NCBI GenBank assembly: GCA_913060865.1
Contig: CAJXTU010000001.1
Location: 434,001 to 498,000, forward strand
Reading direction: 5' to 3'
DNA: 64,000 nucleotides
Origin: an uncultured Cycloclasticus sp.
Lineage (GTDB): Bacteria; Pseudomonadota; Gammaproteobacteria; Methylococcales; Cycloclasticaceae
How positions within the stretch are numbered: the stretch's first letter is position 1; the number at the start of each line of letters is the position of its first letter. The notes under the pieces are model-generated. The model had not been told where the DNA came from. It saw nothing but the letters and a program-made list of their open reading frames with translations, and searched no databases. The translations under genes and the position numbers were made by a program. This document shows, piece by piece, positions 16,267 to 20,161 of the stretch.

Positions 16267-16680
16267 TTAGTCAGCTTGATTGCGCATAAAGTCTGCGGTA
16301 TTGAAGAACGCTTGCATCAGCTCATCGTGCATGGGTTTTTCGATGTCCATTTTGTCGAGTGCTTGTTCCATGCAATGTAGCCACTGGTCGCGTTCTTTTA
16401 TACCGACAGAAAAAGGTAAATGGCGTGCGCGTAATCGAGGATGACCAAATTTTTCAATATATAAAGACGGGCCACCAAGCCAGCCGCTTAGGAAAAGAAA
16501 TAATTTATCTTCGGCCTCAGTTAAATCTGGTGCGTGCATGTCGCGAATAGTTTTCACATCTTTGGTGTTGTCCATGGTTTCGTAAAAAAACTTAACGAGC
16601 TGTCGAACGCCTGCTTCACCGCCTAATTTTTCATATTGGGTGAGCTTATATTGTTGCCCTGGTTTAATGGTCTCGATCAT
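16267..16680 (-). CDS. Group II truncated haemoglobin
   Basis: A 137-residue 2-over-2 globin (HbO/trHbII class) that binds O2, NO or other ligands through haem. [19 protein letters not shown] marks the B helix. The proximal histidine is His87 in RLRARHLPF, and the group II hallmark tryptophan is at G8 (Trp100, DQWLHCM). Its ATG overlaps the hemL stop by 4 bases, so a haem-binding protein is coupled to a haem-biosynthesis enzyme. Confidence 0.95.
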
Positions 16681-17963
16681 ATTAATTCCTGAAATGCAGC
16701 GTTAGCAGCGGTGAGTGTATCGTCTATGTCATGTTGGGTATGAGCGGCGGATACAAAGCCTGCTTCAAATGCAGAAGGAGCGAGGTAGATACCCTGTTCT
16801 AGCATTAAGTGGAAAAATTGTTTAAAGCGTTCTTGATCGCATTGCATCACTTGGTTAAATCGACTGATATTGCCATCTTCAGAGAAGAATAAACCGAACA
16901 TGCCGCCTACTTGGTTAGTGGAAAATGGGATATTTGCTGCTTTGGCGAGCCGGTTGAGCCCATCAAGCAGGTAGCTGGTTCGCTCGGTCAGTTGTTCATA
17001 AAAACCAGGTTGGCTAACAAGCTCTAATGTTACGAGACCCGCGGACATGGCTATAGGGTTGCCAGATAATGTGCCGGCTTGATAGACAGGGCCGTCGGGT
17101 GCGAGTTGTGCCATGATGTCTGCACGGCCACCAAAAGCCCCAACGGGCATGCCGCCGCCGATGACCTTGCCTAATGTAGTTAAATCAGGTTTAACGCCGT
17201 AGAGTTGTTGCGCACCACCAAGGGCGACACGAAAGCCACTCATCACTTCATCAAAAATCAACACGATACCGTATTGGTTACATAACTGCCGCAAACACTC
17301 AAGAAAACCGGCTTCTGGCGGTATGCAGTTCATATTGCCTGCGACAGGCTCAACAATAATGCAGGCAATGCTATCGCCGTTGGTTTGTAGTAACTGAGTG
17401 ACCGCTTCGGTGTCGTTATAAGGAAGTGTTAGCGTGTGATCTGCGAGTGAAGCCGGTACGCCAGGTGAGCTGGGAACACCGAAGGTGAGTGCGCCTGAAC
17501 CTGCTTTTACCAATAATGAATCGGAATGGCCGTGGTAACAACCTTCGAATTTAATGATGTTGTCTCGACCGGTGAATCCGCGAGCTAAACGGATAGCACT
17601 CATGGTAGCTTCAGTACCGGAGCTGACCATGCGCACTTTCTCAATGGATGGTACAAGTTGGCAGACTTTTTCAGCCATGGTGGTTTCGATAATCGTAGGT
17701 GCACCAAAGCTAAGGCCTTTCTCGGCTGCTTTTTGGACAGCTCTAACGACATCAGGGTGGCTATGTCCAAGTACCATCGGGCCCCAAGAGCCAACATAAT
17801 CTATGTACTGTTTGTCGTTTGTATCAACAATATATGCACCGTTTGCATGATCGATAAATATCGGGTCGCCTCCAACGCCTTTAAAAGCGCGTACGGGTGA
17901 ATTTACGCCACCAGGAATGGTTTGTTGTGCTTGCTCAAAAAGTAAAGAGTTGTTCATAGTCAT
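16677..17963 (-). CDS. hemL: Glutamate-1-semialdehyde 2,1-aminomutase
   Basis: PLP enzyme that makes 5-aminolevulinate in the C5 haem pathway. The 428 residues begin with the conserved [31 protein letters not shown] carries the PLP aspartate, and the Schiff-base lysine is in [17 protein letters not shown]. It is followed by the truncated haemoglobin and dedA genes with minimal spacing. The first ATG is two codons before an alternative ATG, with no clear preference. Confidence 0.98.
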
Positions 17964-18045
17964 GTTGGGTTATTTGAATAACTAAACATTATAAGCAATA
18001 AAGGGTGATTACTTGAAAAAATGAAGCGTTAGGCTATTAAAAATA

Positions 18046-18065
18046 AACTGAGCAATACGTCAGTT
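18046..18065 (-). terminator. Weak terminator-like hairpin after the hvfABC operon
   Basis: On the minus strand, stem AACTGA/TCAGTT with an 8-base loop is followed by TATTTTTAAT, about 42 bases after the hvfC-like stop. The stem is only 6 bp and AT-rich, so termination would be partial. Confidence 0.35.
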
Positions 18066-18106
18066 GATTATCGTTAGCCCCTTCTTAATTTGTAGGTTTG
18101 ACTAAA

Positions 18107-18880
18107 CTAAAAATGCTTGGCGGGAACAACAATCCCGCGACTGATAAAGTCATCAAGGATTGTTAGGCCGCCTTCAATAACAAGATCAGGATTTGGGTGC
18201 TGAAGGTCGTTTGCCAGTGTTGACAAAATTTGGCTAGTTAATAGCTTGGTATTGTTCGTTAATGCGATAAGCAAGGCGTGTGTCATTGATGTTGTTTCTA
18301 AAAAGCCAGTTCTGTTGTCAGCATTGCGGTAAACAGCAAGAAATGTTGGTGTCGCGGGTGCTTTTTTTGGCAAAAAATCAGGAGATATTTTGTGAACAGG
18401 ATAGGTATAAGCGACTGCCAAAGCAGTAGAAGCTACCGTTAAAGCTTGATTGAGTGGGTCGTTAATGCTGGTGTTTTCTATTTCGTCTTCAGCAATTGAG
18501 ATGATTAATTCGACCCACTCGTAATGAGCAAGTTCCAGTAAGAATGGGAAGTCTTTGATGGAGTCTGGGCTATCTGAGCGCTCGTTTTGTAAGTATTGAA
18601 CAAACTCTTGTGATATGTCGGAAAAATAAGGGCTTTGACTTGGGTGACGACAATAAAAATCTCGGCAGATGTTTTCCCATTGTTGTTCAGAGCAAATTTT
18701 CTTAAGAACAGGAAATCCATCACTAAGGGTACTCGAAATATTGCTAAACAGGAGATCGCGATAGATGTTTATGCGGCGTTCTTCAATATCACTTGGTCTT
18801 GGTGCACTCTTAGGGTCACGAATGTAATTGGTGAACGCGTGCTGAGTTTGGATGAAAGAAGGCGTCTTATCCTGTGACAC
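18107..18880 (-). CDS. hvfC: HvfC-like DUF2063 partner protein
   Basis: A 257-residue protein with the DUF2063 N-terminal domain (FTNYIRDPKSAPRPSDIEERRINIYRDL region), typical of the partner that helps DUF692 iron enzymes bind and modify their peptide precursor. A C-terminal helical/winged part follows (about 100-257). It overlaps the upstream DUF692 gene by 14 bases, so the two are translated together. No DoxX-like gene, which sometimes completes such loci, follows. The name is by homology of the gene set. Confidence 0.88.
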   Translation of the reverse strand: MSQDKTPSFIQTQHAFTNYIRDPKSAPRPSDIEERRINIYRDLLFSNISSTLSDGFPVLKKICSEQQWENICRDFYCRHPSQSPYFSDISQEFVQYLQNERSDSPDSIKDFPFLLELAHYEWVELIISIAEDEIENTSINDPLNQALTVASTALAVAYTYPVHKISPDFLPKKAPATPTFLAVYRNADNRTGFLETTSMTHALLIALTNNTKLLTSQILSTLANDLQHPNPDLVIEGGLTILDDFISRGIVVPAKHF

Positions 18881-19721
18881 GCTGTTGACCTAGTTGGGAC
18901 GAATAATTCAATTGGGCTTGATGAATAAGGTTAACTTCTTCGAGTAAGTCAGGCAGTGGTGGAATATTAAAATCACGTTCTAATAGGGTAGGAAACAGGC
19001 CAAAATTTTCGTAGGCTTTGTCGAGTAATTGCCATACAGGGTCTATTACTTTAGAGCCGTGAGAATCAATGATAATATCGTCGGCTTCATTATAATGTCC
19101 TGCGATATGTGCATAACTTATGCGGTCACCTGGGAGCTCTTCCAAAAAATTCTCTGCACTGTATTTATGGTTTACGCTGTTAACATAAATATTGTTAATG
19201 TCGATAAGTAACTTGCAATCAGCTTTTTTTATAACCGCGTTAATGAAATCAATTTCTTCCATTTCCTTACCAGGGGCAGCGTAGTAGGAAGCATTTTCTA
19301 TGGCAATTTGTTCACCAAGAATATCTTGTACTTGGATAACTCTATCTGCCACGTAATCAACTGCTTCTTGAGTAAATGGGATAGGCATCAGGTCGTACAT
19401 ATGACCGCCATCACTGCAATAAGTGAGGTGTTCGGTATAAATTTTAATTTGGTGTTGCTTAATAAAGTCCCGTATATCGCGTACAAACTCAACGTCTAGT
19501 GGGTCTGGGCTGCCTATGCTGAGAGATAATCCATGTGCTACAAAAGAGAACTGTTCGGTTAATGCGCGTAATTGCTTAGCGTAACTACCGCCGATTCGTA
19601 TCCAGTTTTCAGGAACGATTTCATAAAAATCGATATCGCTAGGAGGGTTCTCAGATAGCGGGCCAATAAAGGCCCGCCTTAATCCGAGACCTGCTCCGTG
19701 AACTGGAAAGGTATTAGTCAT
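18867..19721 (-). CDS. hvfB: DUF692 multinuclear iron oxidative enzyme (MNIO), HvfB-like
   Basis: A 284-residue TIM-barrel iron enzyme that, in characterised relatives, converts cysteines of a small precursor into copper-binding groups. The family's conserved metal-site segments are present in order: VPENWIRIGG, AHGLSLSIGSPDPLD, TEHLTYCSDGGHMYDLMP, AIENASYYA, LLIDINNIYVNS, YAHIAGH, IDSHG and LLERDFNIPPL. The precursor gene is directly upstream (12 bases) and the DUF2063 partner directly downstream. Confidence 0.93.
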   Translation of the reverse strand: MTNTFPVHGAGLGLRRAFIGPLSENPPSDIDFYEIVPENWIRIGGSYAKQLRALTEQFSFVAHGLSLSIGSPDPLDVEFVRDIRDFIKQHQIKIYTEHLTYCSDGGHMYDLMPIPFTQEAVDYVADRVIQVQDILGEQIAIENASYYAAPGKEMEEIDFINAVIKKADCKLLIDINNIYVNSVNHKYSAENFLEELPGDRISYAHIAGHYNEADDIIIDSHGSKVIDPVWQLLDKAYENFGLFPTLLERDFNIPPLPDLLEEVNLIHQAQLNYSSQLGQQRVTG

Positions 19722-19733
19722 TGCTATGCAGAA

Positions 19734-19973
19734 TTATTTATTATCGCCGCACTTACCTTCGCCACATTTAGCTTCTTTAGCTTTATCAGCAGCTTTTTCA
19801 GCGCCACATTTACCTTCACCACATTTACCTTCAGCAAGGACCATGTAACCCGTTTCTAGTTCAGTTGCGCCAAACGGGTTTGAATCTGCGCTTACTGCTG
19901 GAGCAAAAGCCATAGATGTGACAAATGCTGCACCTAAAGCGGCTACTAATGGTTTTTTTGTAGAGTTTTTCAT
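19734..19973 (-). CDS. hvfA: HvfA-like EGKCG peptide precursor
   Basis: A 79-residue secreted peptide precursor. It has a signal peptide (1-29, cleavage after AVSA), then NPFGATELETGYMV, typical of this precursor family, then a Cys-rich tail with four modifiable sites: EGKCG at Cys51 and Cys56, EAKCG at Cys70 and EGKCG at Cys75. In Haemophilus influenzae, HvfA cysteines in EGKCG motifs are converted by HvfB/HvfC to copper-binding oxazolone/thioamide groups. The start has a good AAAGGA 7 bases upstream. It is the first gene of the operon and presumably the most translated. Confidence 0.92.
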   Translation of the reverse strand: MKNSTKKPLVAALGAAFVTSMAFAPAVSADSNPFGATELETGYMVLAEGKCGEGKCGAEKAADKAKEAKCGEGKCGDNK

Positions 19974-20161
19974 AAGAATGTCCTTTGATTTTTTTATTAA
20001 TTAATAACTGTAAATTCAGCCAACTTGCATCAAGTGCCGACAAGAGTGGAGCGGTTAACTATATGCGATTTAATAGACCAGGCAAAGTTAAAAAAACTTA
20101 CATGGTTTTAAAATATTTAGGTAAATTTTGCTTAAACAAAGCAGGGTGTACTTAAAATGCA

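Follow-up and report, generated by a model that had tools for sequence, protein, structure and literature searches.

A captophorin-type hvfABC operon of Cycloclasticus and its predicted control by an ECF sigma factor shared with methionine sulfoxide reductase genes

The minus-strand operon at positions 18107–19973 of the window (the whole 64,000-nucleotide stretch that was analyzed, from the genome of an uncultured Cycloclasticus, related to marine bacteria that degrade oil) probably encodes a captophorin system, in which a precursor peptide would undergo thiooxazole chemistry, leave the cytoplasm through the Sec pathway and bind Cu(I) in the periplasm, and whose transcription would be controlled by an ECF sigma factor and a DUF3379 protein and shared with msrPQ and bufferin-type operons. 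We assign this reading a probability of roughly 0.78. Judged by its genes and motifs, the locus is an ordinary captophorin cluster (oxazolin-type, Lys-Cys group), that is, a known kind of RiPP system. The regulatory link is the added finding, and similar regulons, made of different parts, have been published for Caulobacter and Haemophilus.

The precursor gene hvfA (19734–19973, minus strand; ORF of 79 amino acids with four Lys-Cys motifs) is followed, after a gap of 12 bases, by hvfB (18867–19721, minus strand), which encodes an MNIO maturase of 284 amino acids (PF05114; E-value 4.4e-102). The third gene, hvfC (18107–18880, minus strand), starts with GTG and encodes a DUF2063 partner protein of 257 amino acids (PF09836 and PF22106); it overlaps hvfB by 14 bases (18867–18880). 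The earlier note on this DNA had described the locus as an hvfABC-type operon with a DUF692-type enzyme and a DUF2063 partner in a 14-base overlap, without giving the strand. These assignments are borne out by the Pfam matches and by the curated NCBIfam models, with which HvfB scores 428.7 bits (NF003818; cut-off 360), HvfC 277.4 bits (NF050145; cut-off 142), and the precursor 41.2 bits (EGKCG repeat model NF050137; cut-off 19.5). The precursor does not pass the strict HvfA equivalog model of the Haemophilus influenzae type (NF050188; 41.5 bits, cut-off 95). HvfB is the only MNIO in its genome. We rejected methanobactin (MbnB, 46.5 bits versus a cut-off of 325) and bufferin (BufB, 264.5 bits versus 310) identities for it, as well as ApyH and ChrH, for which the scores are also under the curated cut-offs. 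An acquired island was likewise rejected: the G+C content of the operon (0.40–0.42) is near that of the upstream flanks, while hemL has 0.46–0.48, and synteny is kept in the genus.

Full-length HvfB orthologs, with 78–90 per cent identity to window HvfB, are encoded in 14 of the 17 other Cycloclasticus genomes. Among the 18 genus genomes, G012 has only an hvfB fragment, and G013 and G016 have only distant MNIOs; these three genomes, which lack an intact hvfB, were left out of the hvfA promoter count given below. All 11 genus loci whose flanks are long have nth upstream and hemL downstream of hvf, with approximately 3.4 kb separating hvfC from hemL in one of them (L004). The hvfC start codon is situated at exactly −14 in 14 of the 15 genus orthologs. 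On the evidence of this gene order, the cluster is kept in place across the genus. In the window, hemL and a truncated globin gene lie 3′ of hvfC on the same strand (16267–18107), in an order that is kept in most genus loci.

As the earlier note had stated, no DoxX gene adjoins the window operon, and hvf has no DoxX neighbor in any of the 15 genus genomes that carry hvfB. The absence is real, but it is not a peculiarity of this locus: the fon cluster, as described in PMC12668002, consists of a precursor, an MNIO, and a partner only. DoxX is located away from hvf in 16 of the 18 genus genomes. In the window's own genome, the single DoxX gene found (C1:250163) is about 200 kb from the operon and sits among unrelated genes, and we rejected it as a distant partner. 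A longer DoxX protein (197 amino acids; L167, 2391–2984) has one or two representatives in most genus genomes; in L167, its neighbors are, by our reading of the ORFs, an FMN glutamate-synthase-like and a bile-acid-symporter-like ORF.

The precursor begins with a Sec-like signal peptide (residues 1–29; 19887–19973, minus strand), for which a cleavage site between AVSA and DSNPFG was read by eye. All four Cys motifs that had been reported for this secreted precursor are present on the same strand: an EGKCG-EGKCG pair (residues 48–57; 19803–19832), EAKCG (residues 67–71; 19761–19775), and a further EGKCG (residues 72–76; 19746–19760). With 79 amino acids and four Cys, it is the shortest of the 15 Cycloclasticus precursors, versus 97–148 amino acids and 7–14 Cys in the others. 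The 15 precursors hold 138 Cys motifs (84 EGKCG, 32 EAKCG, 10 EGKCA, 6 EAKCA, and 6 others), although these counts are not independent because the sequences are related and the repeats have been copied. EAKC[GA] accounts for 38 of the 138 motifs and always stands first in an adjacent run, with none among the 73 motifs at later places, and an Ala at position 2 is present in 14 of the 15 precursors. Outside the genus, where a precursor was required to have at least two KCG and 13 of 69 loci gave none by that rule, EAKCG was found in 4 of 56 precursors (six motifs, four of these at the second place); it also occurs in 7 of 32 frames of a class-wide sample. Separately, the hvfA genes of L085, L088, L090, and L091 encode Cys-Ala motifs (EAKCA-EGKCA-EGKC[GA]), and KCA makes up a large share of the sites in several such genomes.

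The earlier note had asked whether the enzyme accepts the variant EAKCG. For the homologous FonBC the answer is affirmative: the fragment FonA67-80, SGEAKCGEGKCGEK, is reported to lose eight H, with 4 Da placed at each of its Lys-Cys motifs, and FonA variants at position 2 other than Pro are processed, as is Ala at position 5 (PMC12668002). Acceptability is therefore settled for FonBC and, by analogy, very likely for window HvfB. Skipping of EAKCG, which would leave three modified sites, could be argued from the one-residue difference in the Cys context and from the fact that HvfB is not identical to FonB; in view of the FonBC result and of the retention of EAKC[GA] across the genus precursors, always first in its run, we consider it improbable.

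Between the signal peptide and the first motif lies a candidate recognition segment, NPFGATELETGY (residues 32–43; 19845–19880, minus strand), distinguished by the conservation of [NS]PF and GY. All 71 precursors (15 from the genus and 56 others) have [NS]PF after the signal peptide; among the 70 rows tabulated, a G is located 10 residues past the first residue of [NS]PF in 67, and a Y at 11 residues in 65. [NS]PF is also present in 27 of the 32 class-wide frames; the five without it are two contig-end pieces, one leftover frame, L239, and L261. A word search for NPF in the main texts of three MNIO papers returned no match. HvfA without its signal is reported to be poorly modified (PMC13419390). 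According to PMC12668002, a shortened FonA has no individually essential residue ahead of its core, which argues against a strict requirement for the segment, if the segment was present in that construct.

Residues R15, R16, D250, and F251 of window HvfB correspond to R15, R16, D249, and F250 described for FonB, a match that rests on position and local sequence and not on an alignment with FonB itself. Among 26 HvfB proteins, R15 and D250 are found in all, R16 in 25 (Lys in one), and F251 in 20 (Leu in six). Candidate metal-site residues are N176/N177, D219, and H221. In an indirect alignment through 3BWW, which together with 3DEE is a solved structure related by sequence match, D219 and H221 align near D242 and H244 of HvfB, whose Ala variants are reported to be inactive. 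The oxazolone/thioamide chemistry that the earlier note had expected has been replaced in print by a 5-thiooxazole, with a change of −4 Da per motif (PMC12668002, PMC13419390). The revised structure was assigned to fontiphorin, oxazolin, and gonophorin (PMC12668002), and the original group states in the introduction of PMC13419390 that oxazolin is likewise reassigned. The homologous Fon, Hvf, and Ngo systems are reported to make 5-thiooxazole and to bind Cu (PMC12668002).

By homology with these systems, HvfC would bind the signal-bearing precursor through its RiPP-recognition domain, and HvfB, an iron enzyme presumed to be active only with HvfC, would oxidize each Lys-Cys pair to a 5-thiooxazole. 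The expected mass change is −4 Da per site, which for the four sites, among them EAKCG, adds up to about −16 Da. Export would then proceed through Sec, and the peptide would hold Cu(I) in the periplasm. The Pfam description of PF09836, and a proposal in the abstract of the NGO1945 structure report, would instead make HvfC a DNA-binding regulator. We regard this as very improbable: window HvfC passes the HvfC equivalog model, and the homologous HvfC is reported to be needed for catalysis (PMC13419390).

The evidence for the proposed regulation begins upstream of hvfA. In an alignment of the hvfA upstream regions of 15 genomes, a conserved block begins with TG[TAC]AAG-N17-GGTCTA. In the window, the predicted ECF −35 element TGTAAG (20097–20102, minus strand) is separated by a 17-base spacer from the predicted −10 element GGTCTA (20074–20079, minus strand), which is located 100 bases before the hvfA ATG; the element occurs once in the window. 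In the whole genome to which the window belongs, TGTAAG-N16-18-GGTCTA has exactly two matches, which lie upstream of hvfA and immediately upstream of an ECF sigma gene. Across the 18 genomes, this pattern is matched 26 times, versus 4 for a reversed-pattern control; of the 26 matches, 9 precede hvfA, 11 the ECF gene, and 1 msrP, and the other 5 are located elsewhere. A matrix built from the 17 ECF-gene sites (maximum score 22.3) scores 21.0–22.3 before hvfA in 15 of 15 genomes, whereas the best of 49 other gene starts reaches 7.3 and the best of 1740 mononucleotide shuffles 15.1; since the pattern had first been read off hvfA, these scores are a check in the other direction and not a blind test. 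Based on these matches, hvfA is most likely transcribed by the ECF sigma factor, whose gene is about 89 kb away, from TGTAAG-N17-GGTCTA at 20102–20074.

Just downstream of the −10 element, a further conserved block (20036–20073, minus strand) reads TTAAATCGCATATAGTTAACC in most genomes; it is strongly conserved, is not accounted for by the ECF promoter, and shows weak folding only. A structured 5′ leader was considered and found unconvincing (consensus fold of −3.8 kcal/mol with 11 pairs, one of them with a change on both sides; 12 of 15 sequences), and no Rfam match was found between 18000 and 20800 up to an E-value of 1. The block holds the TATAGT of a sigma-70-like site, TTGCCT-N16-TATAGT at 20085–20058, which overlaps the ECF-like element. 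The same operon, with the same chemistry, could therefore be transcribed from this overlapping site or by another regulator, with the ECF-like element being secondary, and the extension of the conserved block beyond GGTCTA to include TATAGT speaks for such an arrangement. However, sigma-70-like matches in the region are not above chance (4 found versus 6.4 expected), and what the ECF gene, msrP, and bufferin-type operons have in common is TGNAAG-N17-GGTCTA and not TATAGT. We consider this alternative rather unlikely and retain ECF control as the preferred reading.

The ECF sigma gene is located at C1:364798 in the same genome as the window. TG[TAC]AAG-N17-GGTCTA precedes it in 17 of 17 genomes, with −35 variants allowed, among them G014 and G015, where the ECF loci are near contig ends. 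Since the ECF start codon falls only 0–4 bases after GGTCTA in all 17 (for example, at C1:364766–364801 in G000, which corresponds to 3267–3301 of L166), the mRNA may be leaderless. An inverted repeat in the spacer of the ECF-gene element in several genomes, such as GATAGC-N4-GCTATC, is a possible operator, and in L204 (G002, a symbiont genome), the ECF match runs across one TAA.

The gene that follows the sigma gene encodes a DUF3379 protein (60.9 bits). In the 15 genus proteins that were readable (two of the 17 loci were unreadable by script), it has C-X20-H-X3-C-X2-C near its N terminus. The published zinc-anti-sigma (ZAS) motif, as quoted in PMC7907618, is C/H-X23-26-H-X3-C-X2-C; the spacing of 20 in the DUF3379 protein is shorter than the published 23–26. 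The DUF3379 protein would hold the sigma factor and could release it upon thiol oxidation or soft-metal binding. With so short a spacer, and with the motif in only 1 of 10 close outgroup proteins (G031), we infer rather than observe such thiol- or metal-operated release. A search over open-licence papers found no literature on DUF3379.

The same sigma factor would drive its own gene, msrPQ (a periplasmic methionine sulfoxide reductase), and bufferin-type operons where present. When one mismatch was allowed in three genomes, the pattern matched 25 times and its reversed form 20 times (in G006, the reversed form led by 11 to 6), and thus the count alone shows nothing. Yet one site recurs before msrPQ in all three genomes. 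MsrP (474.8 bits versus a cut-off of 207) and MsrQ (149 bits versus 130) both score above their cut-offs. Upstream of msrP in 14 genomes, seven have an exact core (scores of 21.0 or more), three differ in a single −10 base and score 15.1, no higher than the best shuffle, and four (G002, G003, G012, and G016) have no good match to the element. In the window's own genome, up to one mismatch gives 10 sites, three of which precede hvfA, the ECF gene, and msrP. The other seven were rejected as regulon members: three are inside long ORFs, one is inside an ORF conserved in G006, two have no clear target, and the seventh, before a c-type-cytochrome-like ORF, is not among the G001 and G006 matches.

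Five genus genomes have a second MNIO. The element is exact before this operon in G017 and G003, has an altered last base in G006, and was not found in G013 or G016. In G006, the only one of the five that was scored, the precursor is BufA2 (84.7 bits versus 60) and the MNIO is BufB. In G017 and G003, two tandem multi-Cys precursors precede the second MNIO (L100 and L102), and the first of these has a Cys placed as in a lipoprotein signal.

Taken together with the post-signal segment, these sites suggest a broader hypothesis, which we consider reasonably likely: a single envelope-stress regulon, in which an ECF sigma factor and a DUF3379 protein with a zinc-anti-sigma-like thiol motif, a pair unlike those of Caulobacter, Neisseria, and Haemophilus, would co-express hvfABC, a Buf2-type bufferin operon where present, and MsrPQ, and in which [NS]PF-x4-[LM]-x2-GY would form part of the HvfC recognition site.

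Among the 56 hvfA regions from other genera, seven, all from Pseudoalteromonas, carry TGAAAG-N16-GGTCTA and reach 19.5 with the matrix; 11 more score 13.2–14.7 and the remaining 38 no higher than 10.0, against shuffle maxima of up to 15.6. A loose match to the element is present in 4 of 27 hvfA regions of the class-wide sample. ECF homologs were found in 11 of the 15 outgroup genomes searched, 10 of them at 42–49 per cent identity, and only 2 of these 10 close homologs have the loose element before their own gene (8 of 10 do not). Three of the 10 corresponding genomes have MsrP, with the loose element before two of the three. The two outgroup sigma-gene neighbors that were checked are both DUF3379. 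Because the elements are rare in the outgroup and class-wide samples, the predicted regulon is well supported within Cycloclasticus only.

Among known systems, fontiphorin (fonABC of Fontimonas thermophila; PMC12668002) resembles the window locus in having three genes only, in placing EAKCG next to EGKCG, and in its Lys-Cys group MNIO with Arg-Arg and Asp-Phe at matching places, but FonA has seven sites versus four in the window precursor. Oxazolin (hvfABC and hvfX of H. influenzae; PMC13419390, PMC7907618) shares the HvfB and HvfC families, the Sec signal, and the EGKCG repeats, as well as ECF control, if the RpoE2-dependent "DoxX cluster" with COG3220 and DUF2063 genes is hvf, as we take it to be. 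In contrast to oxazolin, the window operon lacks DoxX, its precursor has four sites instead of six and falls under the strict HvfA cut-off, and Cycloclasticus has a different anti-sigma family and MsrPQ instead of MsrAB. Bufferins Buf1 and Buf2 also combine an MNIO, a DUF2063 protein, and an exported precursor, and Buf2-like operons occur alongside the hvf system in about five genus genomes, with a partly common promoter; window HvfB, however, is under the BufB cut-off, and the window precursor has EGKCG repeats.

In H. influenzae, RpoE2 is described as controlling msrAB and also, upon HOCl exposure, a cluster of four genes that includes DoxX, COG3220, and DUF2063 members, and the SigE regulon of Neisseria meningitidis as containing msrAB and a similar cluster (PMC7907618). 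In Caulobacter, sigmaF is reported to control DUF692/DUF2063 operons and the YedY gene CC2748 (PMC3511200). The sigmaF regulon is thus like the one predicted here in placing MNIO/DUF2063 operons, a YedY (MsrP) gene, and its own locus under an ECF sigma factor, but it differs in its DUF2282 precursors, DUF1109 anti-sigma factor, GTAACC-N16-CGAA promoter, and DoxX (PMC3511200), whereas Cycloclasticus has TG[TAC]AAG-N17-GGTCTA and a DUF3379 neighbor. In the open-licence papers searched, we found no report that places such clusters under an ECF/DUF3379 pair. A few oxazolin clusters are reported to carry PF00174 and ferric-reductase genes (PMC12452194); MsrP and MsrQ have these same domains, in agreement with a functional link to MsrPQ.

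The predicted co-regulation with msrPQ, and the fact that HOCl induces the homologous cluster of H. influenzae by way of RpoE2 (PMC7907618), could also mean that the main task of the peptide is to absorb or repair periplasmic oxidant damage through its thiol and thiooxazole chemistry, with copper binding as a side effect. We think this doubtful, as homologous products bind Cu and metals are reported to induce such pathways (PMC12668002), and we favor periplasmic Cu(I) binding as the function.

By itself, the operon contributes a further captophorin precursor of unusually small size; the regulatory prediction matters more. If true, it would be a further instance, built from other parts, of an ECF sigma factor coupling thiooxazole metallophores to methionine sulfoxide repair. 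It would speak for placing these peptides within a periplasmic response to oxidants and metals, in which copper sequestration and methionine repair would be one response, and it would give DUF3379 a role, open to testing, as an anti-sigma factor that senses redox state or metals.
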